This document shows, piece by piece, positions 16,851 through 35,398 of a stretch of DNA of 64,000 nucleotides. Origin of the DNA: Planctomycetota bacterium (GTDB lineage: Bacteria > Planctomycetota > SZUA-567). Each line of letters begins with the position of its first letter. Position 1 is the first letter of the stretch. The translations under genes and the position numbers were made by a program. The DNA is taken from assembly GCA_031261425.1 (NCBI GenBank), contig JAISJR010000017.1, positions 1-64,000 of the forward strand, written 5' to 3'. A model generated the notes under the pieces. The model ran no database searches and was not told where the DNA came from. It saw only the letters and a program-made list of their open reading frames with translations.

Positions 16851-17723
16851 ATGTCCAAAGAAATCAAACAAATCGCCATCTACGGCAAGGGCGGAATCGG
16901 CAAGTCAACCACCTCGTCGAACATCAGCGCCGCGCTGGCAAAATTGGGTTACAAAGTTATGCAGGTCGGTTGCGACCCGAAAAGCGATTCGACCAACACT
17001 TTGCGCGGCGGCACTTACATTCCGACCGTGTTGGACACGCTCCGCGCCAAAGGCAAAGTTACCGCCGACGAAATTATTTTTACCGGCGCCGGCGGCGTGT
17101 ATTGCGTCGAAGCCGGCGGTCCGGCGCCGGGCGTCGGTTGCGCCGGTCGCGGGATTATCACCGCCGTCGAGCAACTGAAACAATTGCGGGTGTTTGAAAA
17201 TCTCGACATCGACATCGTGCTTTACGACGTGTTGGGCGACGTGGTCTGCGGCGGGTTCGCGGTGCCGATTCGCGAAGGCATCGCCAAGCACGTGTTCACC
17301 GTAACTTCGTCGGATTTTATGGCGATTTACGCGGCGAATAATCTTTTCGCCGGCATTAAAAAATACAGTAGCACCGGCGGCGCGTTGCTCGGCGGCATTA
17401 TCGCCAACTCGATTAACGCGCCGTATAGCCGCGCGATTGTCGATGATTTCGCCGCGCGCACGCAAACGCAAATCGTCGAATACGTCCCGCGCTCGGTAAC
17501 GGTTACGCAGGCGGAATTGCAAGGCAAAACCGTCATCGAAGCCGCGCCGGACTCGGCGCAAGCGCAGGTCTATTTGGAACTTGCCGAAAAAATCGCCAAG
17601 CACACGGACTCCAAAACGCCGAATCCGATGTCGGTCGAGGAATTGCACCAGTGGGCGGGTTCGTGGGCGGAAAAATTGTTGAAAATCGAAACCGGCGAAG
17701 TCGCGCCGAAAGACGGGATTTAG
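16851..17723 (+). CDS. NifH-like iron protein (nitrogenase-like reductase component)
   Basis: This 290-residue ATP-driven electron donor of the NifH/BchL/CfbC family has Walker [10 protein letters not shown] at 12-20 and CDPKSDST at 41-48. The two cysteines that hold the 4Fe-4S cluster between subunits are Cys97 (GVGCAGRG) and Cys133 ([14 protein letters not shown]). Arg100, the regulatory ADP-ribosylation position in some NifH, is conserved. It would be a homodimer passing electrons to the D/K-like protein. The Shine-Dalgarno AAAGGA and a promoter lie upstream. The absence of nifB/E/N and the divergent partners argue against true nitrogen fixation. It leads the 18.5-kb cluster. Confidence 0.93.
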
Positions 17724-17813: not shown

Positions 17814-17844
17814 GTAAATGAAAGACAACACTTCTTTCATTTAC
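17814..17844 (+). promoter_or_regulatory. Hairpin before the unknown gene
   Basis: GTAAATGAAAG and CTTTCATTTAC form a perfect 11-bp stem with a 9-base loop, ending 8 bases before the GGAGGG of the next gene. It could protect or block the message, or partly terminate transcription after the NifH-like gene. Confidence 0.6.
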
Positions 17845-17865
17845 ACTTTTCAGGGAGGGCTAACC

Positions 17866-19645: not shown

Positions 19646-21130
19646 ATGAGCAACCTTGATTTAACTGTGCCGCCGCGCCGCGAAGACCGGCATCACGAGA
19701 CCTGTTTGGCTTACGGCGGGACGGTCTGCGGTTCGCGCCGCCCCGGCAAACGGTGCGCGTTAATGGCGGACGCCGAGCGCGGTTTCACGCAAGGGTCAAT
19801 CTGCTCGTTGCTTCCGGGTTTGGGGATTATGTGCAGTTTGCCGGACACCGCCGTTTTACTGCACGGCGGCGTCGGTTGCGGCTCGTCCATTCACGGGATT
19901 AACGGCAACGTGCGCGCCGGTCATAACGCGCGGCGCGGTAAGCCGTTCGACGCGCTGTGGTTTTCGACCGCGCTCAACGAAGTTGACGTTATTTCCGGCG
20001 GCGACGCGAAACTTGAACGCGCCATCAAAGAAATCGACGCGCTCTATCAGCCGCAAGTGATTGTCGTGGTCGCCAGTTGCTTGCCCGGCATTATCGGCGA
20101 CGACATCGACTCCGTCGCGGCGCAGGTGCAACCGGCGGTCAACGCGCGGCTTTTGCCGGTGCATTGCGAGGGCTTTAAGACCCGTTTTATGGCGACCGCC
20201 TACGACGTGATTTATCACGCCATCGGGCGAAATTTATTGCCCGCGCCGGACGAGAAAATTATCCGCGAAGAAAAAACGATTAACGTGATGAACGTCGGCT
20301 CGATGGGACGCATCGACGAAATTGAAATTGAGCGTCTGTTTGAAGAATTGGGGCTGACGGCGAATTTTTATCCGGTGTTCGCGCGTCCCGAAAGTTTTTC
20401 GCGCGCGACGCGGGCGGCGCTGTCGATTAGCACCTGCCCGACGCACGACGACTATTTTCTGACGCATTTGGAGGAAAAATTCGGCGTGCCGTATTTGATT
20501 CGCAATATGCCGATCGGCATCGCCAACACGAGCGCGTGGCTCCGCGATTTGGCGGAAAAATTAAAACTGCCGCAGGTCGAAAAATTGATTTCCGCGGAAG
20601 AAGCCGAACTGCGCGCGGCGTTGCAAGAATTTTTGCCGCTGTTTAAGGACAAGCGCGTGTTTTTATCGGCGGGCGAATACCGGTCGCTCGCGACCGCGTC
20701 GCTGTTGAAAGAACTCGGCTTCAAAATCGCCGGCATCCGCTCGTTCCATTACGATAATTTCGCCGAGGTTGAGTTGGAAAAATTGCGCGCCGGCGGCGAG
20801 GATTTCACGTGGAACGTCGCCAACGTTCAGCCGTTCGAGGAAGCGAATTTACTGAAAAAAGTCAAGCCGGATTTATTTTTGGGGCATTGGCACGGCAATC
20901 AAACCGCCGGTCGGCTCGGTATTCCGACGCACGTGATTTACAACACCGGTTACGGCTACATCGGTTATCGCGGCGTGTATGACTTGGCGCGGCGGCTACA
21001 TCGCAAGTTGAGCAACACCGCGTTCACCGACCGCCTCGGAAAATACGGACGTTTGCCGTATCGCGACAGTTGGTATCAAGAAGAACCGTTTGCGTATATC
21101 CGCTCGAAAAACGCGGCAAATGCCGAGTAA
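19646..21130 (+). CDS. NifD/NifE-like catalytic subunit of a nitrogenase-like reductase
   Basis: This 494-residue oxidoreductase/nitrogenase component 1 family protein has three P-cluster cysteines aligning as Cys53, Cys78 (GGVGCGSS, 25 residues apart as in NifD) and Cys145 (ASCLPGIIGDD). Cys264, in STCPTHDDYFLTHLEEKFGVPY, aligns without gaps with the NifD cofactor ligand Cys275 region. In the region of NifD His442, the stretch after GIP (GIPTHVIYNTG) places Tyr432 where His would be. Extra cysteines at 20, 28 and 37 form an N-terminal group not found in NifD. I infer a catalytic subunit with a metal-sulfur cofactor acting on something other than N2. Substrate unknown. Confidence 0.9.
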   Translation: MSNLDLTVPPRREDRHHETCLAYGGTVCGSRRPGKRCALMADAERGFTQGSICSLLPGLGIMCSLPDTAVLLHGGVGCGSSIHGINGNVRAGHNARRGKPFDALWFSTALNEVDVISGGDAKLERAIKEIDALYQPQVIVVVASCLPGIIGDDIDSVAAQVQPAVNARLLPVHCEGFKTRFMATAYDVIYHAIGRNLLPAPDEKIIREEKTINVMNVGSMGRIDEIEIERLFEELGLTANFYPVFARPESFSRATRAALSISTCPTHDDYFLTHLEEKFGVPYLIRNMPIGIANTSAWLRDLAEKLKLPQVEKLISAEEAELRAALQEFLPLFKDKRVFLSAGEYRSLATASLLKELGFKIAGIRSFHYDNFAEVELEKLRAGGEDFTWNVANVQPFEEANLLKKVKPDLFLGHWHGNQTAGRLGIPTHVIYNTGYGYIGYRGVYDLARRLHRKLSNTAFTDRLGKYGRLPYRDSWYQEEPFAYIRSKNAANAE

Positions 21131-21203: not shown

Positions 21204-22586
21204 ATGACCTCGATATTAGACGAACCGTTGCCGCCGCTCGTTTCCGCGCTTGAACGTCCGCGGTGGAGTTGCGCGCTCGGCGGGGCGCTCGCCGCGGTCG
21301 GCGCGTTGCCGCGCACGATTCCGGTGATGCACGCCGGACCCGGTTGCGCGTCGAATTTTACGTGGATGCAAAACGGTTCGGGCGGCTTGGCGACCGGCGG
21401 TTATTGTAGCGGTCTGGCGATGCCGGGCTCGAATTTGCAGGACAGCGAAGTGGTTTTCGGCGGACACGAGCGGTTGGGCGAGGAACTCGCCAACGCCATC
21501 AAAATTATGGACGGCGATTTGTATTTCGTCCTGACCGGTTGCGTGCCGGAAGTTATCGGCGACGACGTGGACGCGGTGGTGGCGGAATACGCCAACGACG
21601 GCAAGCCGGTGGTTTTCGCCTCGACCGCCGGATTCAAGGGCAACTCTTATTTCGGCTACGAACAAGTGCTGAAAACGTTGTTTAAGTCGGTGGTGGAAAA
21701 AGGCGCGCCGAAGCAAAACGACTTGGTCAACGTGTGGGGCGTGCCGCCGACGCAGGATGTTTTTTGGCGCGGCAATTTGCAGGGCGTCGCGCGATTGTTG
21801 CAATTACTCGGTTTTCGCGCGAATTATTTTTTCGGCTCCGGCGCGGATTTAGACCTCATTAAAAAATCCGCCGGCGCGCGGCTGAACATCGTTTTGTCCG
21901 ACCTCTACGGCATCGAGGCGGCGGAATTATTTAAGGAACTGCACGGCGTTGACTTTATTTCCACGCCTCTGCCGTTCGGCGCGGCGGCGACGGAGAAATT
22001 TTTGCGGACGGTCGGCGCGGCGTTGAAAGTAAGCGGCGAAGCGGTGGAGAAAATTATCGACGCGGAAGGGCGTCGGCATTACGAGTATCTCGAAGGATTG
22101 CTTGAAGTTTTCAACGATATGGAAGCGCAACGTTACGCGATTGTCATCGGCGACGCGAATTACGCTTTCGCGACGGCGGATTTTCTCGCCGAGGATTTGG
22201 GCTTTTTACCGGATTTAATCGCCGTTACCGACGACCTGACGGCAGAGAAGCGCGAAATTCTGCTTACCAAGCGGAGCGCGCGGGTCGCGGGGCGCTACGG
22301 CGAAAAATCGCAAGTGGTGTTCATCGCCGACGGGGCGCATTTAACGGAAGCGGTGGACGACACGTGGCGGGCGGAAAGTTGGAAAAAATATCATCCGGCG
22401 AAACGTCCGGCGATTGTGGTCGGCAGTTCGCTTGACCGCGGTCTGGCGGCGGCGCTCGGCGCGGCGCATTTGACCGTGGCGTTTCCGGTGTCGAACCGCG
22501 CGGTGCTAAACCGCGGCTACACCGGCTACGACGGCGGCTTAACCCTCGCCGAAGACGTGATTAGTTCGTTTATCGCCGCGCGGTAA
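21204..22586 (+). CDS. NifK/NifN-like beta subunit of a nitrogenase-like reductase
   Basis: This 460-residue protein starts at the ATG with AAAGGAAC upstream; the open frame reaches back to 21090 but would overlap the D-like gene. P-cluster cysteines are Cys23 (WSCALGGA), Cys48 (HAGPGCASN) and Cys113 (TGCVPEVIGDD), with the 25-residue spacing of NifK. It lacks the longer NifK N-terminal region. With the D-like protein it should form an alpha2-beta2 tetramer fed by the H-like protein. The 74-base gap before it contains a short direct repeat (AAGCGGTGGC twice). The stop is followed directly by GTTGAAA heptamers and then the palindromic repeat. Confidence 0.9.
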   Translation: MTSILDEPLPPLVSALERPRWSCALGGALAAVGALPRTIPVMHAGPGCASNFTWMQNGSGGLATGGYCSGLAMPGSNLQDSEVVFGGHERLGEELANAIKIMDGDLYFVLTGCVPEVIGDDVDAVVAEYANDGKPVVFASTAGFKGNSYFGYEQVLKTLFKSVVEKGAPKQNDLVNVWGVPPTQDVFWRGNLQGVARLLQLLGFRANYFFGSGADLDLIKKSAGARLNIVLSDLYGIEAAELFKELHGVDFISTPLPFGAAATEKFLRTVGAALKVSGEAVEKIIDAEGRRHYEYLEGLLEVFNDMEAQRYAIVIGDANYAFATADFLAEDLGFLPDLIAVTDDLTAEKREILLTKRSARVAGRYGEKSQVVFIADGAHLTEAVDDTWRAESWKKYHPAKRPAIVVGSSLDRGLAAALGAAHLTVAFPVSNRAVLNRGYTGYDGGLTLAEDVISSFIAAR

Positions 22587-22926: not shown

Positions 22927-23007
22927 ATTAGCAAAACATAACCAATCGCGCTATCAATTATTAAATCCGTTTAACCGTTATTCCACGCTTTGGGGAAAAG
23001 CCGTATT

Positions 23008-24021
23008 ATGAACCTATTTATCACAAAAACTATGCGTTATTTGGCAACGGCATGGGCGGCGGTCAAGGAACTGCGCCGCGTCAAACTGTGGTGGGTGCCA
23101 ATGACGATAGGAATAGCGATTCTGCTTGAGTTGCTGTTGTCCAACCACGACAGTCAGCCGGCGACGAAATATGCGTATTACCGCTATTTGGTGTTTATCG
23201 CGCTGGCGTTCTTTTTGACGCTCGCCGTCGGCGCGAAATTTTTTCCGCGTTGGCGGGAAAAACTCCTGCACATTTCCGCCTTTTACACCGCCGTATTTCT
23301 CGCGCTGAATATCTATCACTTGGCGACGCAAAAATTCGGCTTGCTCCCCGCGCTGTTTTTCCCCTCGCCGGGGCGGATTCTCGAAGCGTTGGTCGTTGAC
23401 TTCCGTTATTTGATTGTCGATTGCCTCGGCTCGTCGGCAAAGTTGTTGGCGTGGGGCTATTTCACCGGCGCGATTGCCGGCTTCTTCACCGGCATCGCCG
23501 TCGGCTTCAACAAAACCGCCGCTTACTGGGTCAATCCGCTGACCCGCATTATCGGACCGATTCCGCCGACCGCGTGGATACCGATAGTGTTGGTGGCGTT
23601 TCCGACCACGTTTTCCGGCGGCGCGTTTTTAATCGCGCTGGCGGTGTGGTTTCCGGCGGCGGTGATGACCGGTAGCGGCATCGCCAACGTGCCGAACGCT
23701 TATTTTGAGGTGTCGAGCACGCTCGGCGCCAGCCGTTGGCGGCAAATTTTTTACGTCGGGATTCCCGCCGCGATGCCGTCGATTTTCATCGGGCTGTTCA
23801 CCGGCACCTGCTCGTCGTTTATTACGCTGATGACCGCCGAAATGCTCGGCGTGAAAAACGGCATCGGCTGGTATGTCAATTGGCAACGCGAAATGTTGTC
23901 CTACGCCAACGTCTATGCCGGACTAATCATCATCGCGATTACCTTTTATTTGCTGATTACCTTGCTTTTCCGCTTGCGCGATGTCGTGCTGGTCTGGCAA
24001 AAAGGAGTAATCAAATGGTAG
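23008..24021 (+). CDS. ABC transporter permease, NitT/TauT type (system 1)
   Basis: This 337-residue inner-membrane protein has three extra N-terminal helices (about residues 25-45, 58-78 and 88-108) before the standard SsuC/TauC-type permease core. The cytoplasmic ATPase-contact loop is visible as EVSSTLGASRWRQIFYVGIPAAMP. A GGGGAAAAG site lies about ten bases before the ATG. It overlaps the ATPase gene (ATGGTAG), so the two are coupled. Relatives import nitrate, taurine, sulfonates, thiamine precursors and similar small molecules; the substrate here is unknown, but proximity suggests the compound used by the reductase or the methyltransferases. Confidence 0.88.
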   Translation: MNLFITKTMRYLATAWAAVKELRRVKLWWVPMTIGIAILLELLLSNHDSQPATKYAYYRYLVFIALAFFLTLAVGAKFFPRWREKLLHISAFYTAVFLALNIYHLATQKFGLLPALFFPSPGRILEALVVDFRYLIVDCLGSSAKLLAWGYFTGAIAGFFTGIAVGFNKTAAYWVNPLTRIIGPIPPTAWIPIVLVAFPTTFSGGAFLIALAVWFPAAVMTGSGIANVPNAYFEVSSTLGASRWRQIFYVGIPAAMPSIFIGLFTGTCSSFITLMTAEMLGVKNGIGWYVNWQREMLSYANVYAGLIIIAITFYLLITLLFRLRDVVLVWQKGVIKW

Positions 24022-24821
24022 CCCCCCAAACGGGCGCCGCGACTATCGGCGCCATCAACATTCGCGGCGTGAAAAAGACCTTCACGCATCAGGACGGCTC
24101 AATCATCGAGGCGCTGTCGAACGTCGATTTGTCCGTCGCCGCCGGCGAGTTTATCACGCTGATTGGTCCGTCCGGTTGCGGCAAGTCAACGTTGCTCCGC
24201 GCGATTGCCGGACTGCATCCGGTTGACGCCGGCGAATTGACGTTGGACGGCGAGCCCATCACCGGACCGGCGGCGGAGCGCGGACTGGTTTTTCAAGACC
24301 CGTTGCTTTTCCCGTGGCTGAACATTCACGACAACGTGGCGTTCGGCTTAAAGGCGCGGCATTTGTATCGCGAGCACAAGGCGGAAGTCGGACAGTTTCT
24401 GAAATTGGTCGGCTTGGAAACGTTCGGCAAATCGTATCCGCACCAACTCTCCGGCGGGATGCAACAACGCGCGGCGCTGGCGCGGGCGCTGGTCAATCAG
24501 CCGAGCGTGTTGTTGCTCGACGAACCGCTCGGCGCGCTCGACGCTTTTACGCGAATGAATATGCAGGACGAAATCATTCGGATTTGGCAGGAGCGTAAAA
24601 CCACGATGATTATGGTTACGCACGACGTTGACGAAGCGGTGTATCTCGCCGACCGCGTGGTGGTGATGTGTCCGCGCCCGGCGCGGATAGAAGAAATCAT
24701 CAGCGTTAAACGGGAGCGTCCCCGCGCTCGCAGTCATCCCGACTTTTTACAGTTGCGCGGGAAACTGCTGAAAATCCTCGACTTCGGCGGACAGGAACGC
24801 GAACCGGAATACCGGATTTAG
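24015..24821 (+). CDS. ABC transporter ATPase, NitT/TauT type (system 1)
   Basis: This 268-residue ATPase has Walker A GPSGCGKST, a Q-loop in GLVFQDPLLFPWLN, signature LSGGMQQR, Walker B VLLLDEP and the switch His in MVTHDVDEA. The start is the ATG overlapping the permease stop, with AAGGAG ten bases upstream. It powers the permease at 23008, and the binding protein at 24981 probably completes the system. Confidence 0.93.
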   Translation: MVAPQTGAATIGAINIRGVKKTFTHQDGSIIEALSNVDLSVAAGEFITLIGPSGCGKSTLLRAIAGLHPVDAGELTLDGEPITGPAAERGLVFQDPLLFPWLNIHDNVAFGLKARHLYREHKAEVGQFLKLVGLETFGKSYPHQLSGGMQQRAALARALVNQPSVLLLDEPLGALDAFTRMNMQDEIIRIWQERKTTMIMVTHDVDEAVYLADRVVVMCPRPARIEEIISVKRERPRARSHPDFLQLRGKLLKILDFGGQEREPEYRI

Positions 24822-24822
24822 A

Positions 24823-24950
24823 GCAATTAACAATTAACAATTCACAATTAACAATGGTGGAGTTTGATGATTAAAAATCGCTTCGCGAAATTTTGACAAT
24901 CAACTCCTCAATTGTTAATTGTTAATTGTGAATTGTTAATTCGTAATTGA
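24823..24950. repeat. AT-rich heptamer inverted repeat
   Basis: Units of CAATTAA/CAATTCA on the left mirror TTGTTAA units on the right, with AAAATCGCTTCGCGAAATTTTG in the middle. It separates the ATPase and binding-protein genes. Confidence 0.8.
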
Positions 24951-24980
24951 AATCTTACCCCCTCTTTTAAGGAGAAAAAA

Positions 24981-25958
24981 ATGCGTGCCAAAATTGTCAT
25001 CGCGTTACTCGCGTTCGCGGTAACGTTGCCGGCGCTCGCCGCCGACGCGCCGCTGAAAAAAATCCGCGTCGGTTTCACCGGCGGATTGTGTGAAGGTCCC
25101 GTGCAAATCGCGCACGAAAAGGGCTTTTACGCGGAAGAAGGTCTCGACGCCGAACTCATCAAACTCCAAGCCGGCGCGAATTTTGAGGCGATTGCCGCGG
25201 ACAAAATCGACGCCAGTTTCGGGTTGCTTGCCACCTTGCTTCAGCCGCTCTCGAACGGGTTGACGATTAAAATCACCACCGGTTTGCACACCGGTTGCGA
25301 CAAGTTGCTGGTGAAACCGGACAGCGGCATCAAAACGCTCACCGACCTGAAAGGCAAAAGAATCGGCGTGCCGAGTTTGACTAGTAGTCCGATTATGTTC
25401 ACGCGGCGCGGTCTCGCGGCGGCGGGCGTGAAAGTCGGCGACAAGGACGCCGAAGTCGAATTTGTCGTCTTCAGTAACGCGGAATTGCCGCTCGCTTTGT
25501 CAAAAGGCGCGATTGACGCGCTGGCGGCGAACGACCCCGTGGCGTCGGTGGCGGCGAAAGCGAACAACTTGACCGTCCTGCTCGATTCGGCGCGCGACGA
25601 GCCGTATAAGAGTCAATACTGCTGTGCCGGTTACGTTTCCGCCAAATTGTATAAAGAAGACCCGGCGGCGGCGCTGGCTTACACCCGCGCCGTGCAGAAA
25701 GCGAGCGCGTGGATTCAGGAACATCCCGACGAGACCACGCAAATTCAGGTGGACAAAAAATACGTCGCGGGCGACCCGGAATTTAACGCGACGGTGCTGA
25801 AAACGTTCAAATACATCCCGTCGGCGAAAGGCGCCTACGACGCCTTCAGCGTCATCGCCAACGAACTGAAAGACATCGGGATTCTGCGCGCCGACCTCGA
25901 CGCGGATAAACTGCGCGACAACAGCGTGGTGCTGTTGCCGGGCGTGGTGTATGAATAA
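24981..25958 (+). CDS. ABC transporter substrate-binding protein, NMT1/SsuA type (system 1)
   Basis: This 325-residue periplasmic protein has a signal peptide of about 21 residues (LLAFAVTLPALAA). The mature start KIRVGFTGGLCEGPVQIAHE and the block GFYAEEGLDAELIKL are typical of the NMT1/SsuA family. LTDLKGKRIGVPSL and NDPVASVAAKA mark later ligand-pocket loops. Cys pairs (GLCEG, YCCAG) are unusual and might bind ligand or metal, or form a disulfide. AAGGAG precedes the start. It belongs with the permease and ATPase just upstream. Confidence 0.88.
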   Translation: MRAKIVIALLAFAVTLPALAADAPLKKIRVGFTGGLCEGPVQIAHEKGFYAEEGLDAELIKLQAGANFEAIAADKIDASFGLLATLLQPLSNGLTIKITTGLHTGCDKLLVKPDSGIKTLTDLKGKRIGVPSLTSSPIMFTRRGLAAAGVKVGDKDAEVEFVVFSNAELPLALSKGAIDALAANDPVASVAAKANNLTVLLDSARDEPYKSQYCCAGYVSAKLYKEDPAAALAYTRAVQKASAWIQEHPDETTQIQVDKKYVAGDPEFNATVLKTFKYIPSAKGAYDAFSVIANELKDIGILRADLDADKLRDNSVVLLPGVVYE

Positions 25959-26182: not shown

Positions 26183-27244
26183 ATGTTATCCCATTTACTC
26201 CGCCCGTTGGCGTTGGCGGCAACGGTTGCCGTCGCCGGATTTTTTTCGCCGACCGCGACCGCCGCCGACAAAATTGTGGTCGGGCATTTGCCGGCGACCG
26301 GACATTCCAAATTTTTTGTCGCCAAAGAAAAGGGCTTTTTCGCCGAGGAAGGGCTTGACGCCGAATTGATTGAATTCGCCAATTCCGCCGACGGTTTGGC
26401 GGCGGTGCGCGCCGGCAAATTGGATGTCGGGGCGTTCGGCACCGTCGCGCCGCTCGTGCATATCGCGCAAGGCGCCGACCTCCACATTCTCGGCGGCATT
26501 ATGGGCGAGGACGCTTTTTTAGTCACCAAAATCGCGCGGGCGGGCGAGGTGAAAAACGTCGCCGACCTGAAAGGCAAAAAAATCGCCACCGTGCGTTTAG
26601 CCAGCGGCGACGCGGTGTTGCGCGGCGCGCTCAGCCAAAACGGCATTTCGTGGAAAACCGACGTGGAATTGTCGGAATTGAAAAACCCGCCGGCGGTGAT
26701 TGAAGCCGTGAAAAACGGGCAGGTCGATGTCGGCGTGATTTGGGGACCGTTCGACCAAACGGTCGCGGAAAACGGTTTGCAAATTGTTTTGGCTTCCGCC
26801 GATTTGTATCCGGGGCATCCGTGCTGTCGCCTCGTCGCCAACGACGCCAAGTTCAAGAGCAACGGCGGCGAGGTCTGGAAGCGTTTCCTGCGGGCGATTC
26901 TTAAAGCCGAGCGGTTCGCGCGCGGCAATCCCGCCAACCGCGCGGAGGTCGTCGCCATCATCGGCAAGTATGTGAAATTGGCGCCGGAAAAAATCGAAAA
27001 CGCCTATTACGCCGGGCGGCTCGACCAGACGACCGACCCCAATTTGCAGGGTGTGTCGCAAGTTTGGCAAATTTTGCAAGACGCCGGTTATATCACGGCG
27101 GATTTAGACATTGCGAAATTCATCGAAACCGCGCCGTATAAAAACGCGCTCGACAGTTTAGCCGCCGAAGAGCCGGACGAACCTTTCTGGCAGAACGCGG
27201 AAGCGGTCTTTGCCGAACGCGACGCGAGCGCGAAGGGCAATTAA
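26183..27244 (+). CDS. ABC transporter substrate-binding protein, NMT1/SsuA type (system 2)
   Basis: This 353-residue periplasmic protein has a signal peptide ending ATATAA (about residue 27). Family blocks: KIVVGHLPATGHSKFFVAKE, GFFAEEGLDAELIEF, VADLKGKKIATVRL and VDVGVIWGPFDQ. It shares its architecture with binding protein 1 but is clearly divergent, so it probably binds another ligand. Its last codons (GGC AAT TAA) come from the repeat that follows. AAGGAG precedes the ATG. It heads the second importer (27387 and 28239). Confidence 0.88.
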   Translation: MLSHLLRPLALAATVAVAGFFSPTATAADKIVVGHLPATGHSKFFVAKEKGFFAEEGLDAELIEFANSADGLAAVRAGKLDVGAFGTVAPLVHIAQGADLHILGGIMGEDAFLVTKIARAGEVKNVADLKGKKIATVRLASGDAVLRGALSQNGISWKTDVELSELKNPPAVIEAVKNGQVDVGVIWGPFDQTVAENGLQIVLASADLYPGHPCCRLVANDAKFKSNGGEVWKRFLRAILKAERFARGNPANRAEVVAIIGKYVKLAPEKIENAYYAGRLDQTTDPNLQGVSQVWQILQDAGYITADLDIAKFIETAPYKNALDSLAAEEPDEPFWQNAEAVFAERDASAKGN

Positions 27245-27375
27245 CAATTAACAATTAACAATTGACAATGGTGGGGTTTGATTATCAAAAATTCGCTTCG
27301 CGCGCGCTTGCGGATTTGTCAATAAAAACTCCATAATTGTTAATTGTTAATTGTTAATTGTGAATTGTTAATTGG
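27241..27375. repeat. AT-rich heptamer inverted repeat
   Basis: TTAACAA units begin in the last codons of the preceding gene and are mirrored by TTGTTAA units around TTCGCTTCGCGCGCGCTTGCGG. Confidence 0.8.
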
Positions 27376-27386
27376 TTGGAGAACCG

Positions 27387-28184
27387 ATGACCACCTTGCG
27401 CCTTGCAGACATCACTTTCGCCTACGGCGACCGCGTTATTCTCGAACATTTGAGTTTGACCGTCGCCGACGGCGAATTTTTGGTGGTGTTGGGCGCCAGC
27501 GGCGGCGGCAAAACCACGCTGTTGCGGTTAATCGCCGGTTTAGCCGCGCCGACGACGGGGCAGATTTTTTTTGCCGATGAAGAAGTGCGCGCGCCGTCGC
27601 CGCAACGCGGCATCGTGTTTCAGGATTACGCGCTGTTCCCGTGGTATTCGTTGCGCGACAACGTGGCGCTGGCGGTGGCGAAAAGCGAGCCGCGCTTGTC
27701 GCGGCGCGAGCGGCGCGAACGCGCCGCCGAGTATTTGCGAGCGGTCGGCTTGGGCGACGCGGCGGCGAAATATCCGCACGAATTGTCCGGCGGGATGCGG
27801 CAACGCGGGGCGCTCGCCCGCACGCTCGCGCTCGGCAGTCCGCTGTTGTTGTTGGACGAGCCGTTCGGCGCGTTGGACCCGCACAACCGCGCCCGTTTGC
27901 AAAATTTATTGTTGGAAATTTGGCGCGCCGCGACTCCGCGCCGCACCGTGATTTTTGTTACGCACGATATTGACGAAGCGTTGTTGCTCGGCGACCGAAT
28001 TATCGCGCTCGGCTCCAACCCCGGGCGCATCATCGGGGAAATAAAAATTGACGCGCCGCGCCCGCGCTCGCGCGAAGACATAATTACCGCCGAAAATTTC
28101 CGGTCATATCGCGCGGCAATCCAAGCGTGCTATTGCCGGCGCGACGACGACGAAGCCGTCGATGGCGACGGCGGCGGAATTTGA
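27387..28184 (+). CDS. ABC transporter ATPase, NitT/TauT type (system 2)
   Basis: This 265-residue ATPase has Walker A GASGGGKTT, Q-loop GIVFQDYALFPWYS, signature LSGGMRQR, Walker B LLLLDEP and switch His FVTHDIDEA. The start follows TTGGAGAACCG. The C-terminus is unusual: ACYCRRDDDEAVDGDGGGI, an acidic, glycine-rich tail. It pairs with the permease 54 bases downstream and the binding protein upstream. Confidence 0.92.
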   Translation: MTTLRLADITFAYGDRVILEHLSLTVADGEFLVVLGASGGGKTTLLRLIAGLAAPTTGQIFFADEEVRAPSPQRGIVFQDYALFPWYSLRDNVALAVAKSEPRLSRRERRERAAEYLRAVGLGDAAAKYPHELSGGMRQRGALARTLALGSPLLLLDEPFGALDPHNRARLQNLLLEIWRAATPRRTVIFVTHDIDEALLLGDRIIALGSNPGRIIGEIKIDAPRPRSREDIITAENFRSYRAAIQACYCRRDDDEAVDGDGGGI

Positions 28185-28238
28185 ATTTTTTTTTAAGATT
28201 TTAAGAATCTTAAAACCCTTAATCCCTTACGCAAAATT

Positions 28239-28979
28239 ATGCCGCATCGCCTTTCCGGTCTGTTGCTCTTTCCGCTCCTTGTCGGCGTCTGGGCGTTCGT
28301 CGCGGAAATTTTACCGCCGCAGAGCCGTTATCTTTTTCCGGCGCCGCTGGCGGTGGCGCGGGCGTTGTGGGAATCGCTCGGCGTGTTGTGGCAAGGCACG
28401 GTCGCGTCGATGATGATTTTAATTCCGGGTTACATTTTAGCGGTGCTTGCCGCCGTATTGTTCGGGATTCCGGTCGGCGCCACGACTTGGGCGCGGCATT
28501 TTTTTGCGCCGTTGATGCGGGTCGCCGCGCCGGTGCCGCCGACGGTGTATGTGCCTTACGCCATCGCGTTGTTGCCGACGTTTCGCGCGTCCGCGATTTT
28601 CGTGGTTTTTATCGGCGCGTTCTGGCCCGTGTTTCTCGGCGCGGTGTCCGGCGCCGCGACCGTGCCGGAGCGCCACCGCGACAACGCCCGCGTGCTTGGT
28701 TTCGGGCGCTGGGAATACTGGCGGCGCGTGGCTTTTCACGCCGCTCTGCCGGCGATTTTCAACGGGATGGGCGTCGGAATGGCGATGGCGTTTATACTGC
28801 TCACCGTCGCCGAATTGTTCGGCGCCAACGTCGGCTTGGGGCATTTCGTCCAATACTACGCCGACTTCGCCGACTACCCGCGGATGGTCGCCGGCATCAT
28901 TTACACCGGCGCGGTTACGTTTTCCGCGATGACGCTCCTCGCCCAATTGCAAAAACGGATGCTGTTTTGGAACATTTAG
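28239..28979 (+). CDS. ABC transporter permease, NitT/TauT type (system 2)
   Basis: This 246-residue permease has the standard six-helix SsuC/TauC core, without the N-terminal extension of permease 1. The ATPase-contact loop is RHRDNARVLGFGRWEYWRRV followed by AFHAALPAIFNGMG. The gap before it holds TTTAAGATTTTAAGAATCTTAAAA, another short inverted repeat. It completes the second importer in the order binding protein, ATPase, permease, the mirror of system 1. Confidence 0.88.
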   Translation: MPHRLSGLLLFPLLVGVWAFVAEILPPQSRYLFPAPLAVARALWESLGVLWQGTVASMMILIPGYILAVLAAVLFGIPVGATTWARHFFAPLMRVAAPVPPTVYVPYAIALLPTFRASAIFVVFIGAFWPVFLGAVSGAATVPERHRDNARVLGFGRWEYWRRVAFHAALPAIFNGMGVGMAMAFILLTVAELFGANVGLGHFVQYYADFADYPRMVAGIIYTGAVTFSAMTLLAQLQKRMLFWNI

Positions 28980-29122: not shown

Positions 29123-30196
29123 ATGCCCACCCACGACCTAATGACTCCCCGCGAACGTTTGGCGGCGATAAAAGCCGGACGCCCGTATGACCGTCTGCGT
29201 TGCGTGCCGTCGATTAGCAACACCACGGCGCGGGTTCTCGGCTGTAAGGTTTCCGAGTTGCGCCGCGACGGCGAGACGCTGGCGCGGGCGACGATTGCGA
29301 CCTACCGGCGTTTCCGCTACGACACGGTGCGGGTGTTCACCGACCTTTACGTTCAGCCGGAGGCGATGGGGGCGAAAGTGCGCGTCCCGCTCGATGAAAC
29401 CGCGCATCTCGACGCGCCGGCGATTAACACGGTCGCCGAAATCGCGGCGCTCACGCCGCATAATCCGCACACCGACGGACCTCTGCCGGCGCTGTTGCAG
29501 GCGACGCGCTTGGTGTATGAGGCGCTCAACGACGAGGTGCCGGTAACTTGCGCGGTGGAGGGACCGTTCACTTTGGCGGCGTTGTTGGTCGGCGCGGAAA
29601 CCATTTCGCGCTGGATGTTTAAGGAACCGGCGGCGGCGCATCGATTGCTCGAAATCGCGTATCGGGCGTGTAGCCGTTTAGCGGCGGCGATTATCGCAAC
29701 CGGCGCGGCGCCGAGTTTGACCGACGCGATGAGTTCCAGCACGGTGATTAGCCCGAAGCATTTTCGGGAATTTGCTTTGCCGTATCTCAAACGATTGGTC
29801 GGCGACATTCGCGAGCGCTCCGGCGCCGCGCCCGGACTGCATATTTGCGGCAAGACCGCGCCGATTTGGGAAGGAATGGTCGAAACCGGCGCGAGTTGTT
29901 TGTCGATTGACAATCTCGCGGATTTGCGCGCGGCGAAAAAATTGGTCGGCGACCGCGTTTGTTTGATGGGCAACATTCCGCCGTCGGAGGTTTTATTGCG
30001 CGGCGCGCCCGCCGACGTGCGCCGCGCCGCGCTGAAATGCATCCGCGAAGCGGGCGATAATCCGGGCGGTTTTATTTTAGCCAGCGGCTGTTCTCTGCCG
30101 ACCGAAACGCCGTTCGCCAACATCGACGCGATGATGGACGCCGCGCGAGAAGTCGGCTATCCGGTCGCCGAGGGGCTGGCGAAAATTACAAATTAA
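29123..30196 (+). CDS. MtaA/CmuA-type methyltransferase (UroD fold) 1
   Basis: This 357-residue cytoplasmic protein belongs to the uroporphyrinogen-decarboxylase superfamily branch that moves methyl groups to or from corrinoid proteins. The zinc site of that branch is complete: His240 and Cys242 (GLHICGKT) and Cys323 (LASGCSLPTETP). The zinc would activate a thiol or thiol-like substrate. Other family marks are AVEGPFTLAALLVG and ALPYLKRLVGDI. GGAGTC precedes the start. The last codons (K-I-T-N-stop) lie in an AT-rich repeat. Three paralogues share one corrinoid protein here; which one meets the substrate and which the methyl acceptor cannot be told. Confidence 0.85.
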   Translation: MPTHDLMTPRERLAAIKAGRPYDRLRCVPSISNTTARVLGCKVSELRRDGETLARATIATYRRFRYDTVRVFTDLYVQPEAMGAKVRVPLDETAHLDAPAINTVAEIAALTPHNPHTDGPLPALLQATRLVYEALNDEVPVTCAVEGPFTLAALLVGAETISRWMFKEPAAAHRLLEIAYRACSRLAAAIIATGAAPSLTDAMSSSTVISPKHFREFALPYLKRLVGDIRERSGAAPGLHICGKTAPIWEGMVETGASCLSIDNLADLRAAKKLVGDRVCLMGNIPPSEVLLRGAPADVRRAALKCIREAGDNPGGFILASGCSLPTETPFANIDAMMDAAREVGYPVAEGLAKITN

Positions 30197-30310
30197 AAAT
30201 TAAAAATTACGAAGTCCTCTGTGGCTCTGTGAGAAATCTCTTGCTCTTTAATTCGTCTAATTCGTGTTAATTCGTGGACAACAAATCTCTTTGCTCTTTT
30301 CATATTTTTC
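30190..30310. repeat. Mixed repeat (heptamer plus CACGAATTA family)
   Basis: It starts with ACAAATTAAAAATTAAAAA in the end of the preceding gene and continues with CTCTGTGGCTCTGTGAGAAA and TTCGTGTTAATTCGTGGACA, a half element of the family at 16532. Confidence 0.75.
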
Positions 30311-30323
30311 GTGGACAAAAAAA

Positions 30324-31346
30324 ATGACTAACAAAGAAATCATTCTGTCCGCGATTGCGGGCAAACCGGCGGAGCGCAACGCCGCGACGTTGATGTCGGC
30401 GGGGTTGTGGTCGTTTGCGCGGCGCGGCTTGAAATTGCAGGACGCGCTCTATCAGCCCGAACTCGCCGCCGACGTGCTGGCTTCGACCATCGAAGAAATT
30501 CAGGGCGATATGGTCTATGCCGCGACCGGCTATTACCAACTTCTGCCCCGCGCGCTCGGCGCGAAAATCAAATTCCGTCCGAACGGCGTCCCCGACCTCG
30601 ACGTGCCGGTTTTCGCCGACCCGTCGCAACTCGACCCGTCGCGGCTCGACCGGATTGCCGGCGACGAAGGGCTGAATTTTTTATGGGAAACCGCCGGACG
30701 GTTGGCGAAGCGGGTCGGGCAAAAATTTTTGGTCGCCTGCGGCTCGTTTGTGGTGCTGACCGTCGGCGGACAAATCGTCAGCGTCGAGCAATTGATGCGG
30801 GCGCTCCGCCGCGACGCGCCGGCGGCGAACGCGGTGTTGGATTACGCGCTTGAAGCGTGCTGGGGCTACCTCGAACCGTTTTTGCGGAGCGGCTCCGAAT
30901 TGGTGTCGCTCGCCGACCCGACCGCCAGCGGCGATATGATTTCGCGCCGGTATTTCGCGGACTTTATCGCGCCGCGCCACAAAATTTTGGTTGACCGGAT
31001 TCACGCGCGCGGCGCCAAAGTGATGTTGCATATTTGCGGCGATGTCAACGACCGGATTAACTTGATGCGCGACTCCGGCGTGGACGTGCTGTCGCTCGAT
31101 TTCAAAGTTGACCTCGCGCCGGTCCGCGAGCAATTGCGCGGACGCGCGGCGTTCGCGGGCAATCTCGACCCGGTGCGGGTGATGTTGCAGGCAACGCCGG
31201 ACGAGATTCGCCGTTTGGGGCGGGAGAGCATTAAAAAATACGGCGGCGACCATAATTATATTTTGATGCCGGGTTGCGATATTCCCGGCACGGTGCCGCT
31301 CGAAAACGTCAAGGCGTTGCTCGCGGCGGCGCGAGAAACCAATTAA
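30324..31346 (+). CDS. MtaA/CmuA-type methyltransferase (UroD fold) 2
   Basis: This 340-residue protein is of the same superfamily, with zinc ligands His236 and Cys238 (MLHICGD) and Cys318 (LMPGCDI). The start is the ATG after a run of A; no clear Shine-Dalgarno is present, and the open frame extends 20 codons upstream into repeat DNA. LADPTASGDMISRRYFADF is the family block before the zinc site. It shares little detailed sequence with copy 1, so it probably has another substrate or acceptor. It ends T-N-stop inside a repeat and lies directly before the corrinoid protein gene. Confidence 0.85.
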   Translation: MTNKEIILSAIAGKPAERNAATLMSAGLWSFARRGLKLQDALYQPELAADVLASTIEEIQGDMVYAATGYYQLLPRALGAKIKFRPNGVPDLDVPVFADPSQLDPSRLDRIAGDEGLNFLWETAGRLAKRVGQKFLVACGSFVVLTVGGQIVSVEQLMRALRRDAPAANAVLDYALEACWGYLEPFLRSGSELVSLADPTASGDMISRRYFADFIAPRHKILVDRIHARGAKVMLHICGDVNDRINLMRDSGVDVLSLDFKVDLAPVREQLRGRAAFAGNLDPVRVMLQATPDEIRRLGRESIKKYGGDHNYILMPGCDIPGTVPLENVKALLAAARETN

Positions 31347-31462
31347 CAATTAACAATTAACAATTAAAAATTTTTGCGTCAATTATTGAAACTTCGCGAA
31401 GCGATTTTGCTAATTCAAACTCCACAATTGTTAATTGTGAATTGTTAATTGTTAATTGATTT
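31343..31462. repeat. AT-rich heptamer inverted repeat
   Basis: CAATTAACAATTAACAATTA begins in the last codon of the preceding gene and is mirrored by TTGTTAATTGTGAATTGTTA, with AAACTTCGCGAAGCGATTTT in the centre. Confidence 0.8.
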
Positions 31463-31509
31463 GCCACTATTTTTGGTCTTAAAAAACCTAACTTTATCGG
31501 AGAAAAAAG

Positions 31510-32181
31510 ATGCCACGGGAAAAATCAGCCGTCTATCGGGACTTGTCCGACGCGGTGTTGAATTTGGAAGAGGAAAAGGCGGCGGCGACGGCGCAAGAAG
31601 TCGTCGCCGCCGGTTACGACGCCTACGAAGCCATCGACCAAGGATTGGCGGACGGGATGGCGCGCGCCGGCAAATTATTTGAGGAAGACGAGTATTTCGT
31701 ACCGGAGTTGTTGATTGCCGCCGACGCGATGTATGCCGGCTTGGGCGTGTTGCGCCCGCACATCAAAATTGACCAAAGCCGCGCGCCGGGGCGCGTGGTG
31801 ATTGGCGTGATTGAGGGCGACACGCACGACATCGGCAAAAATCTCGTCAAAATTATTTTGGAGGCGAAGGGCTTTGAAACGCGCGACTTGGGACGCGACA
31901 TTCCGCCGGCGGCGTTCGCGCAGGCGGCGCGGGAATTTAACGCGGAAATTATCGCCATTTCGACGCTGATGACGACGACGATGGCGGGAATGGAGAAAGT
32001 CATCTCGCTGTTGAAAGACGGCGGCGACCGCGACAAATTCCGCGTAATGGTTGGCGGCGCGCCCATCTCGGCGACTTTCGCCGAAAAAATCGGCGCCGAC
32101 GGCTACGCGGCAAACGCCGTCGAAGCCGGCGAACTCGCCGTGCGGCTGGTTAGCGAACTGCGTGGAGGAATTAGGGATTAG
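31510..32181 (+). CDS. Corrinoid (B12-binding) methyl-carrier protein
   Basis: This 223-residue protein is of the MtaC/MtbC/MttC type. Residues 1-88 are the helical cap domain (GLADGMARAGKLFEEDEYFVPELL). Residues 95-220 are the B12-binding Rossmann domain with the signature DTHDIG at 104-109, where His106 would be the lower cobalt ligand, plus ISTLMTTTM and GGAPIS. It would carry a methyl group on cobalt between the UroD-type methyltransferases that flank it. CGGAGA lies eleven bases before the ATG. It is the only corrinoid protein in the window. Confidence 0.94.
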   Translation: MPREKSAVYRDLSDAVLNLEEEKAAATAQEVVAAGYDAYEAIDQGLADGMARAGKLFEEDEYFVPELLIAADAMYAGLGVLRPHIKIDQSRAPGRVVIGVIEGDTHDIGKNLVKIILEAKGFETRDLGRDIPPAAFAQAAREFNAEIIAISTLMTTTMAGMEKVISLLKDGGDRDKFRVMVGGAPISATFAEKIGADGYAANAVEAGELAVRLVSELRGGIRD

Positions 32182-32222
32182 GGAAAAGTTGAAAGTTCGG
32201 ATGGCGTTTTTTGGCGTTTCTT

Positions 32223-32464
32223 AGAACCTATCCGAATATCGAACTAATTGGCTGTTTGCCCCGTTAGGGGCAATCTGTCGGTAGAAACGCCGCCGCCATA
32301 AAGTCGCGTCCCGTTAGGGACGCAATGTCGGTCTAATTACCACTAACCAACATTCCGTCCCTACGGGACGGATTCTTTTCGGGCGGCTTTTTCTACCGAC
32401 ATTTCGTCCCTACGGGACTGCGTCCCCTATCGGGACGACGCTCGTTGATAACAGGATAGGTTCT
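32223..32464. repeat. 242-bp palindromic element
   Basis: AGAACCTATCC (32223-32233) is mirrored exactly by GGATAGGTTCT (32454-32464). Inside, GTCGGTAGAAA mirrors TTTCTACCGAC, and several small stems CGTCCC-TA-GGGACG or CCCGTTAGGGG sit between. The gap of about 350 bases between the corrinoid protein and methyltransferase 3 is otherwise empty. It differs from the CCCAGGGT palindromes. Confidence 0.85.
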
Positions 32465-32528
32465 TAAACTCTTAAAATTCTTAGCCCGCTTAAAATCCTT
32501 TTTTCTAACCCCTAACCCCCCAATCCCT

Positions 32529-33578
32529 ATGCCTGCCCCTTCCGAAAAAATCACGCCGAAGTCGCGCCTGCGCGCGGTGTTGCGGCGCGAAAAAGTTGAC
32601 CGTCCGCCGGTTTGTTGTCCGGGCGGAATGATGAACGCGGCGATTGTGGAAATCGTCGGCAATTGCGCCGCGACGTTGCCCGCCGCGCATTTTGACGCCG
32701 AAAAAATGGCGACGCTGTCGCTCGCCGTCGCCGAAAAAACCGGCTTTGAAAATATCGCCTTGCCGTTTTGTATGACCGTCGAGCCGGAGGCGCTCGGCAG
32801 TCGCATCGATCCGGGCAGTTTGGCGTGCGAACCGAAAGTCGCCGCCGAAGCGTATCAGTCGTGCGCCGACGTGCCGACGTGGAACGTCGCCGAGTTGTTG
32901 ACGCGCGGGCGCGTGCCGTTAATTCTCGACGCGACGCGGCGGCTTGCCGCGCCCCACGGCGATTTGCCGGTGATTGTCAGCATTTCGGGACCCGTCAGCA
33001 CGGCGGCGTCCGTCGTGGACCCGCCGGCGTATTTCAAGGAATTGCGCAAAAAACCGGCGGAAGCGCGGCGGGTAACCGGACAAGTTACGGCGTTTTTGGC
33101 GGCGTATGCCCGCGCCGCGGTGCAGGCGGGAGCGGACGTGATTGCGATTGGCGACCCCAGCGCGACCGGCGATATTTTGGGTCCGAAATTATTCGCCGAG
33201 TTTGCCGTGCCGTATTTGCGCGAATTGGTCGAGGCGATTCACGCCGCCGGCGCGCCCGCGATGGTGCATATTTGCGGCAACACCGACAACTGCCGCCAGC
33301 ACTGGGTCGCCATCGGCGCGGACGCGGTGAGCGTGGACGCGATGATTAACTTGGCGAAATTGAAAAACGAATTTCCGGCGGCGTTCGCGACGATGGGCAA
33401 TCTCAGCACGTTTTTGTTGGAATTCAGCGACGCCGAAAAAATCGCGGCGCGGGCGCGGCAGTTGGTCGCCGACGGCATCGACATCATCGCCCCCGCCTGC
33501 GGTTTAAGCACCTCCACCAAATTAGCCGCCATCCGCGCGATGACCGACGCGGTGCGGGAGAGCGCAGTGAACAATTAA
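32529..33578 (+). CDS. MtaA/CmuA-type methyltransferase (UroD fold) 3
   Basis: This 349-residue paralogue has the zinc triad His247 and Cys249 (MVHICGN) and Cys324 (IAPACGLST). The N-terminal RLRAVLRREKVDRPPVCCPGG and IGDPSATGDILGPKLFAEF match the MtaA-like branch best of the three. In methanogens MtaA moves methyl from the corrinoid protein to coenzyme M; in bacteria lacking that coenzyme the acceptor could be tetrahydrofolate or another thiol, which is inference. The start ATG has no good ribosome binding site. It ends V-N-N-stop in a repeat. Confidence 0.86.
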   Translation: MPAPSEKITPKSRLRAVLRREKVDRPPVCCPGGMMNAAIVEIVGNCAATLPAAHFDAEKMATLSLAVAEKTGFENIALPFCMTVEPEALGSRIDPGSLACEPKVAAEAYQSCADVPTWNVAELLTRGRVPLILDATRRLAAPHGDLPVIVSISGPVSTAASVVDPPAYFKELRKKPAEARRVTGQVTAFLAAYARAAVQAGADVIAIGDPSATGDILGPKLFAEFAVPYLRELVEAIHAAGAPAMVHICGNTDNCRQHWVAIGADAVSVDAMINLAKLKNEFPAAFATMGNLSTFLLEFSDAEKIAARARQLVADGIDIIAPACGLSTSTKLAAIRAMTDAVRESAVNN

Positions 33579-33742: not shown

Positions 33743-35398
33743 ATGCAAATCCACTTCCTCCCCGACAACCGCACGGTCGAACTGTCCGCCGGCGAGTCGC
33801 TTCTCACGGCGGCGCGGCGCGCCGGCGTCGAATTAGCCGCGCCCTGCAACGGCGCGGGCGTGTGCGGCAAATGTTTGGTGCGCGTCGCGGCGGGTCAGTC
33901 CGCGCCGCTCGGCAAAAGCCGGCATTTCGCGCCCGCCGGCAGTTTGCTTGCCTGCGAAACGACCGCCGTGAGCGATTTAACCGTCGAAATTCCGCGAAAA
34001 AAAGAAACCGGTTTGCAAATCCACAATCACGGCGCGACGATTGAGGTCGAACTCGCGCCGGCAATCCGCAAACATTACGACGGCGCGAACACGCAAATTT
34101 TCGCGGGCGCCGAACTTCTCGGCACGGAAGCCGGCGACACGACCGCGCGCGTTTTCGGCGCGGTGATTGACATCGGCACGACGACGCTGGCGGTCGGGAT
34201 TATTGATTTACTCACCGGCGAAGAAGCGGCGGGCGCGACCGGTCTAAATCCGCAAACGAGTTACGCGCAGGACGTGTTGGGACGAATTCATTTCGCGAGC
34301 GGCGACGGCGGCTTAGCCATTTTACAGAGCGCGGTCGTCGCGGCGTTGAACGCGCTTATCGGCGAGGCGGCAGACGCGGCAAAAATCGACACGGCGCAAA
34401 TTTATGAAGCGGTCGTCAGCGGCAATACTTGTATGTTGCAGTTGGCGCTCGGACTCGACCCCGCGCCGCTCGGTCGGCATCCTTACGCGCCGTTTTTCGC
34501 CGGTAACGAAACGCGCCCCGCCGCCGGTTTGCGGATTGCGCCGTTCGGGCAAATTTACGCGCCGCCGAATATCGCCGGACATATCGGCGCGGATATTGTC
34601 AGCGGCATCGTCGCCACCGATTTGGCGGCGCGGCGCGGCACGACGTTGTTTGTCGATATCGGCACGAACGGCGAAATGGTCGTCGCGCAAGACGGCAAAA
34701 TGGTCGGCGCTTCGACCGCCGCCGGACCGGCGTTCGAGGGAATGAATATCGCCTGCGGGATGCGGGCGGCGGCGGGCGCGATTGAGCGCGTCAACATCGA
34801 GGGGGAAAATTTTCAACTCCGCGTGATTGGCGACGCGCCGCCGGTCGGCATTTGCGGAAGCGGACTGATGGATTTAGTCGGCGAACTGGCGCGTTGCGGC
34901 GTCATTGACGGCGGCGGACGATTAGGCGGCAATCGCGACCCGAACGCCTACGCGGCGAAAATTTTGGCGGAGCGCGGACGGCGCGTGGACGGCAAGGCGC
35001 GGCTGACGGTCGCGGACGCGGTTTATTTATCGCAAAAGGATTTGCGGCAGGTGCAATTGGCGAAAGGGGCGATTCGCGCCGGCGTCGATTTATTATTGAA
35101 AAACGCGGGCGTGGCGGCGGCGGCGGTGGACGAGGTGATTATCGCCGGTTCGTTCGGGTATCATTTGCGCGCCGAGAGTTTGCTCAATTTGGGCTTACTG
35201 CCGCGCGAATTGGCGGGAAAAATAAGTTTTGCCGGCAACACCTCGAAAAGCGGGGCGCGACTGTTTTTATTAAATCACGCCGAACGCGCCCGCGCGGCGG
35301 CGTTAGCCCGCGCCGTCCGCGCCGTCAATTTAGCCGAAGACGAAAGTTTCCAAACCGTCTTTATCGCGGCGATGGCGTTTCCGGCGGCGAGAGAATAG
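33743..35398 (+). CDS. RamA-type corrinoid-activating ferredoxin/ASKHA ATPase
   Basis: This 551-residue protein begins with a [2Fe-2S] ferredoxin domain: Cys35, Cys41, Cys44 (CNGAGVCGKC) and Cys71 (LACET). A linker to about residue 140 is followed by the ASKHA-fold ATPase domain (VIDIGTTTLAVGI; TLFVDIGTNGEMVV; IAGSFGYHLRAE). Proteins of this type use ATP to reduce inactive Co(II) corrinoid back to Co(I) on methyl-carrier proteins. It fits as the repair enzyme for the corrinoid protein at 31510. It closes the cluster and no convincing ribosome binding site is seen. Confidence 0.92.
   Translation: MQIHFLPDNRTVELSAGESLLTAARRAGVELAAPCNGAGVCGKCLVRVAAGQSAPLGKSRHFAPAGSLLACETTAVSDLTVEIPRKKETGLQIHNHGATIEVELAPAIRKHYDGANTQIFAGAELLGTEAGDTTARVFGAVIDIGTTTLAVGIIDLLTGEEAAGATGLNPQTSYAQDVLGRIHFASGDGGLAILQSAVVAALNALIGEAADAAKIDTAQIYEAVVSGNTCMLQLALGLDPAPLGRHPYAPFFAGNETRPAAGLRIAPFGQIYAPPNIAGHIGADIVSGIVATDLAARRGTTLFVDIGTNGEMVVAQDGKMVGASTAAGPAFEGMNIACGMRAAAGAIERVNIEGENFQLRVIGDAPPVGICGSGLMDLVGELARCGVIDGGGRLGGNRDPNAYAAKILAERGRRVDGKARLTVADAVYLSQKDLRQVQLAKGAIRAGVDLLLKNAGVAAAAVDEVIIAGSFGYHLRAESLLNLGLLPRELAGKISFAGNTSKSGARLFLLNHAERARAAALARAVRAVNLAEDESFQTVFIAAMAFPAARE

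Follow-up and report, generated by a model that had tools for sequence, protein, structure and literature searches.

A planctomycete nitrogenase-like protein from a sister clade of methylthio-alkane reductase probably takes its cofactor histidine from Loop I

Methylthio-alkane reductase (MAR, group IV-C) has been called the only nitrogenase-like enzyme described with P- and [Fe8S9C]-clusters (PMC12552129). In MarD, the catalytic subunit of the R. rubrum enzyme, Cys270 and His429 bind the [Fe8S9C] cluster; His429, the ligand of Fe8, lies in Loop I and not at the site of NifD His442 (PMC12552129). The pair Arg428-His429 has been suggested as a hallmark of MAR (PMC12552129). A further group IV system, the isethionate reductase IsrHDK, contains an IsrD without equivalents of Cys62, Cys154 and Cys275 (PMC11423573). 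Group IV-A (Nfa) adjoins MarD (PMC11423573), and NifDK-like genes found in association with selenium-free mlp clusters of type I have been assigned to it (PMC10418091). Examples of Nfa HDK are found in Endomicrobium proavitum and Paenibacillus riograndensis (PMC9147875, PMC11423573).

The window, a 64,000-nucleotide stretch of a Planctomycetota genome, encodes an H, D and K set related to these systems (Table 1). The D reading frame is uninterrupted over its 494 codons, an AAAGG-type site lies upstream, and residue 1 of its NifD-like product is also where homologues begin in the alignment, indicating the same start position. R. rubrum MarD is the closest solved relative by both sequence and fold. 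Identity to MarD is 31%, compared with about 24% to NifD (E about 1e-30), and an AF2 model built from 70 sequences (pLDDT 90.3) finds its best fold match in 9fmg_A (TM 0.85/0.89, rmsd 2.6 A), while NifD structures reach TM values of about 0.71-0.76. The direct evidence comprises conserved residues, homology, the class of fold, the operon context and the co-occurrence of NifB; cluster identity, ligation by His414 and the reaction are inferred from it. With a probability of roughly 0.68, D would be the cluster-bearing subunit of a group IV reductase in a sister clade of MAR, using Cys264 and His414 to hold a NifB-derived [Fe8S9C] cluster and most likely cleaving C-S bonds.

Table 1. Positions of the nitrogenase-like genes, their predicted ligand codons and the adjoining genes in the window
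Feature	Position	Strand	Remarks
NifH/MarH-type reductase (Fe protein)	16851..17723	+	290 aa; MarH 9fmg_D, E 7e-142; TIGR01287 nifH 398 bits, above cut-off
D (alpha-like) catalytic subunit	19646..21130	+	494 aa; best PDB match MarD 9fmg/9d9u, E 1.8e-62
Cys53 codon	19802..19804	+	predicted P-cluster ligand; equals MarD Cys66, NifD Cys62
Cys78 codon	19877..19879	+	predicted P-cluster ligand; equals MarD Cys91
Cys145 codon	20078..20080	+	predicted P-cluster ligand; equals MarD Cys158
CPTHDDY motif	20435..20455	+	Cys264, predicted cofactor Fe1 ligand; His267 at NifD Ser278 position
His414 codon	20885..20887	+	predicted second cofactor ligand, Loop I; equals MarD His429, NifD Gly424 position
Tyr432 codon	20939..20941	+	residue at NifD His442 column (MAFFT)
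K (beta-like) subunit	21204..22586	+	460 aa; best PDB match MarK 9d9u_C, E 5.9e-76
ABC transporter 1	22990..25958	+	permease 22990-24021; ATPase about 24036-24821; SsuA/NMT1-type binding protein 24981-25958
ABC transporter 2	26183..28979	+	NMT1-type binding protein 26183-27244 (Pfam NMT1); ATPase 27372-28184; permease 28239-28979
Three MtaA/CmuA-type corrinoid methyltransferases	29123-30196, 30264-31346, 32529-33578	+	HxC...C zinc motif in all three
Corrinoid protein of the methyltransferase set	31510-32181	+	within the set 29123..33578
RACE/Ram-type corrinoid reductive activase	33743..35398	+	551 aa; NF040756 AcsV-like 373.6 bits, below cut-off 800

Conservation in D was counted over 83 homologues in a MAFFT family alignment. 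The original prediction had named cysteines 53, 78 and 145 as conserved P-cluster residues, and they are retained in 81, 81 and 83 of the 83 sequences, respectively. Cys23, Cys48 and Cys113 of K align with MarK Cys32, Cys56 and Cys121 and are predicted to form the K half of the P-cluster, and all six P-cluster cysteines are present across D and K. Cys264 is invariant (83/83) and corresponds to NifD Cys275 and MarD Cys270. The segment that holds it, CPTHDDYFLTHLEEKFGVPY, pairs without gaps with the NifD region around Cys275 in both MAFFT and hhalign, so the fit seen by eye and the assignment of Cys264 as a cofactor ligand both gain support. In the AF2 model, Cys264 sits after strand 257-262 and before helix 265-279.

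The surrounding CPTHDDY motif is a signature of the clade, marked by His267 at the position of NifD Ser278; MarD-type proteins read C-x-T-L there. The scan of genome contigs for homologues used six peptide patterns, including CPTHDDYF and FHYDNFAE (residues 264-271 and 367-374), and because these patterns contain residues 264-271 and 368, selection accounts in part for the invariance seen there. CPTHDDY also occurs in D copies not picked by pattern (locus L074, 548-2071; L075, 15432-17048; L091; and L092). His414 and Tyr432 lie outside all six patterns and are free of this bias.

Loop I of the D protein, VKPDLFLGHWHGNQTAGRLGIP, reads VKPDLFLG-H414-WHGN. His414 is invariant in the 83 homologues and is placed by the AF2 model after strand 410-413 and before helix 415-423. 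Both the MAFFT family alignment and the hhalign profile-profile alignment (FLG-HW against IIIRHN) pair it with MarD His429; a gap in the D protein falls opposite MarD Arg428, and Gly413 is likewise found in 83/83. Pairwise phmmer with a single sequence pairs His414 with MarD Arg428 instead, and because of this shift of one residue the match to His429 needs family evidence. From these alignments, His414 is a predicted cluster ligand of D. Sequence comparison thus suggests that the cofactor histidine is probably not lost but provided by a neighbouring loop, as in MAR. His416, two residues further on, was ruled out as a ligand, being present in only 25/83.

The NifD His442 column contains tyrosine in 73 homologues, phenylalanine in nine and tryptophan in one; it is aromatic in every sequence and histidine in none. 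Tyr432 occupies this column in MAFFT, as the original prediction had it, and hhalign opens a two-residue gap in the D protein opposite NifD His442-Ser443. The exact pairing is therefore aligner-dependent, and the site is without histidine either way. Taken strictly, the first observation would mean a cofactor without any histidine ligand, bound instead by Tyr432 or by a non-protein ligand. The constantly aromatic site is consistent with such an arrangement, but Tyr432 is ruled out as a ligand by the Phe or Trp found in 10/83, which means that a Tyr-O ligand cannot be general, whereas His414 is present throughout and matches a ligand of the solved MarD; this proposal is highly improbable. The suggestion of a metal-sulfur cofactor held unlike FeMo-co is upheld, and its implied exchange of histidine for tyrosine is not, since His414 would serve instead: alignment against MarD places a histidine at the cofactor position (His414 at His429). 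The initial observation was right and its interpretation probably half right, the different hold being achieved through a relocated histidine with published precedent.

The identity of the cluster is addressed by the genes that accompany D. The genome from which the window derives, 92.7% complete, yields only two hits to PF00148, namely this D and K, and no NifEN was found by that search. It encodes a NifB-type protein of 286 aa with a radical SAM domain and HPCF, CNVQCNFC and CVNESRPGV motifs. The gene lies on another contig (genome contig C90; locus L088, 10709-11569) and is thus unlinked from HDK, in contrast to the NifB-H-D-K order of the close relatives L005, L006 and L008. Besides the window's genome, 20 distinct genomes with this D were tested, and every one of them has NifB. 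In three genomes (the window's, G071 and G077) this DK is the only detected DK-type pair, NifB is present and NifEN is not detected; in G071 and G077, NifB shares a contig with DK. Because NifEN is missing from the genomes that have only this DK, the NifB product itself is suggested as the natural cofactor. MAR and NifB biochemistry predicts the composition [Fe8S9C], and a cluster of this kind, derived from NifB and bound through Cys264 and His414, is the most likely cofactor. The coupling to NifB is imperfect in distant kin. In G001, a genome of the same genus as the window's that is 84% complete, NifB was found with no DK hit, so that either sequence is missing or NifB serves another purpose there. 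In G010, a contig begins with a MarD-like DK, and no full NifB hit was obtained.

These gene contents also bear on a role for D as a NifE-like maturase or scaffold that carries the cluster for another enzyme. The top NCBIfam match of D is indeed nifE, at 168.7 bits and far below the cut-off of 505 bits, but no other DK that could accept the cluster is found in the window's genome, and the dedicated MarH-type reductase, both P-cluster halves and the uptake operon point to a catalyst. A scaffold function is barely credible.

In a tree of 39 D sequences, the window's protein groups with the CPTHDDY sequences and is excluded from the MarD-type clade (100/99). The two groups are neighbours, both far from Nif, and the clade of D is found in several phyla. 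Loop I follows the same division: Arg-His in the MarD type, Gly-His in the window's family and Ser-His in a third, small subfamily. In three loci of the same planctomycete family (L094, L098 and L099), a D subfamily has CHVHDLY for CPTHDDY and SHPGIGIW for GHWHGN, with the Loop I histidine kept. One D of a Chlorohelix plasmid that bears two H-D-K sets (L087, 14974-16494) has a longer Loop I without an aligned histidine, possibly representing another mode of coordination. G014, a genome of the same family as the window's, encodes a D identical to the one in L005 (Planctomycetota MAG Nc350_bin215), and the style of MAG names suggests a termite-gut habitat for most close relatives.

MarHDK (PDB 9FMG, 9D9U; PMC12552129) shares with this system its fold, the H/D/K set, the six P-cluster cysteines, the cluster cysteine, the Loop I histidine, His375 (here His368) and a probable need for a NifB-type enzyme. 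The window's protein differs in belonging to a separate sister clade, in a Loop I that is one residue shorter and without Arg428, in an additional conserved His267 and in a locus linked to corrinoid methyltransferases. In place of His194 and Trp195, which neighbour S2B in MarD, D has Phe181 and Met182, and for this reason the substrate is probably unlike that of MAR. That MarHDK are the closest solved relatives of H, D and K might be taken to mean that the enzyme is MAR itself, converting methylthio-ethanol to methanethiol and ethylene. This is unlikely given the distinct Arg-His clade of MarD, the identity of 31%, the three MarD residues that are not conserved, and loci in which MarD-type and window-type D stand side by side (L038, L072, L075 and L080).

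Compared with Mo-nitrogenase, D resembles NifD in overall fold, P-cluster cysteines and the Cys275 equivalent. It departs from NifD in the replacement of His442 by Tyr, Phe or Trp, of Gln191 by Met182 (Met or Trp in homologues), of His195 by an invariant Tyr186 and of the homocitrate-contacting Lys426 by variable residues (residue 416), and NifEN is absent from the window's genome. Judged by sequence, D falls outside both MAR proper and the nitrogenases, since its clade is separate and key residues of MarD and NifD are replaced. Isethionate reductase, likewise of group IV and adjoined by sulfonate-type transporters (PMC11423573), is ruled out as an identity, because D keeps the equivalents of Cys62, Cys154 and Cys275 that IsrD has lost.

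The clade of D is probably group IV-A 'Nfa', an assignment made by mlp linkage and by the published position of Nfa beside MarD. This raises the prospect of an N2-reducing DK with an Fe-only cofactor, the activity claimed for E. proavitum. That organism takes up 15N2 and is reported to have no nif-like genes other than NfaDK (PMC9147875). The cluster-building parts of a nitrogenase (NifB, P-cluster and Cys264) are present. However, the replacement of four NifD residues that are tied to N2 reduction and the lack of NifEN in the window's genome speak against N2 reduction, and the genes adjoining DK concern methyl-sulfur compounds, not nitrogen. It is very unlikely that this DK fixes nitrogen.

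The neighbourhood is consistent with a reductase of organosulfur compounds. Cys97 and Cys133 of the H protein are predicted ligands of a [4Fe-4S] cluster. Between H and D lies a 588-codon ORF (17818-19584, +) that has no Pfam or NCBIfam match; it resembles an insertion into the operon, given its GC3 of 0.55 against 0.70-0.78 in neighbouring genes and the lack of any homologue in the fetched loci. Transporter 1 matches the ntrB/TauC/SsuA families, in all cases below cut-offs, and the D-K-permease-ATPase-binding protein order is kept in the closest relatives. Homologues of transporter 2 precede D in loci of the Geobacter group. Matches of the substrate-binding proteins to sulfonate families all fall below cut-off. 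Further downstream, at 41758-62894 (+), the window contains type VI secretion genes (Hcp, TssF, TssG, IcmF-related and VipB/TssC).

The methyltransferase set is recognized by TIGR01463 and TIGR02370 matches in the first two methyltransferases and the corrinoid protein, and by similarity in the third methyltransferase. As in the type I mlp cluster of Kountz & Balskus (PMC10418091), three MtaA-like methyltransferases, a corrinoid protein and a RACE activase occur together with neither selD nor selB above cut-off in the window's genome. The HxC...C motif has been tied to S/Se substrates (PMC10418091); a selenium role was set aside on the selD and selB result. The type I mlp linkage is shared with group IV-A NfaHDK. 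An arrangement of methyltransferase, D, K, corrinoid protein, methyltransferase and RACE, with NifB and H nearby, recurs in loci of Bacillota, Spirochaetota, Synergistota, Planctomycetota, Myxococcota and Geobacteraceae, and organosulfur-type transporters and the methyl-corrinoid set are linked to the clade across many phyla.

Returning to the reductase reading, the MarH-type protein would deliver ATP-driven electrons to a P-cluster shared between D and K and from there to a Mo- and homocitrate-free, NifB-derived [Fe8S9C] cluster. Fe1 of this cluster would be bound by Cys264 and Fe8 by His414 of Loop I, much as by Cys270 and His429 in MarD, with the conserved His267 added and Arg428 missing. 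An imported organosulfur compound would have its C-S bond reductively cleaved, and the adjacent corrinoid methyltransferase set would then handle methyl-sulfur products. For the reaction of D/K, the best fit would be a reductive cleavage of C-S bonds that serves sulfur assimilation and is coupled to methyl transfer, and a similar link to methyl-corrinoid systems was proposed earlier (PMC10418091). Because the histidine appears to be supplied by the loop as in MAR, an iron-sulfur-carbide cluster and work on sulfur compounds, not N2 fixation, are most likely.

Tentatively, the entire clade may constitute a second class of [Fe8S9C] enzymes, defined by Cys264, the Loop I His414 and the cavity His267, with a substrate other than methylthio-ethanol and a product fed directly to corrinoid methyltransferases. 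If so, the Loop I histidine was already present in the common ancestor of groups IV-A and IV-C, and the reported N2 fixation of group IV-A needs re-examination. The disputed 'group IV nitrogenase' probably belongs to this clade, and the sequences analysed here lack the residues of the N2 site. Within the Arg428-His429 hallmark of MAR, it is the histidine and not the arginine that is common to the whole sister clade. Because this Loop I histidine is common to both clades, it can be proposed for their ancestor as well, and large carbide clusters probably occur more widely.
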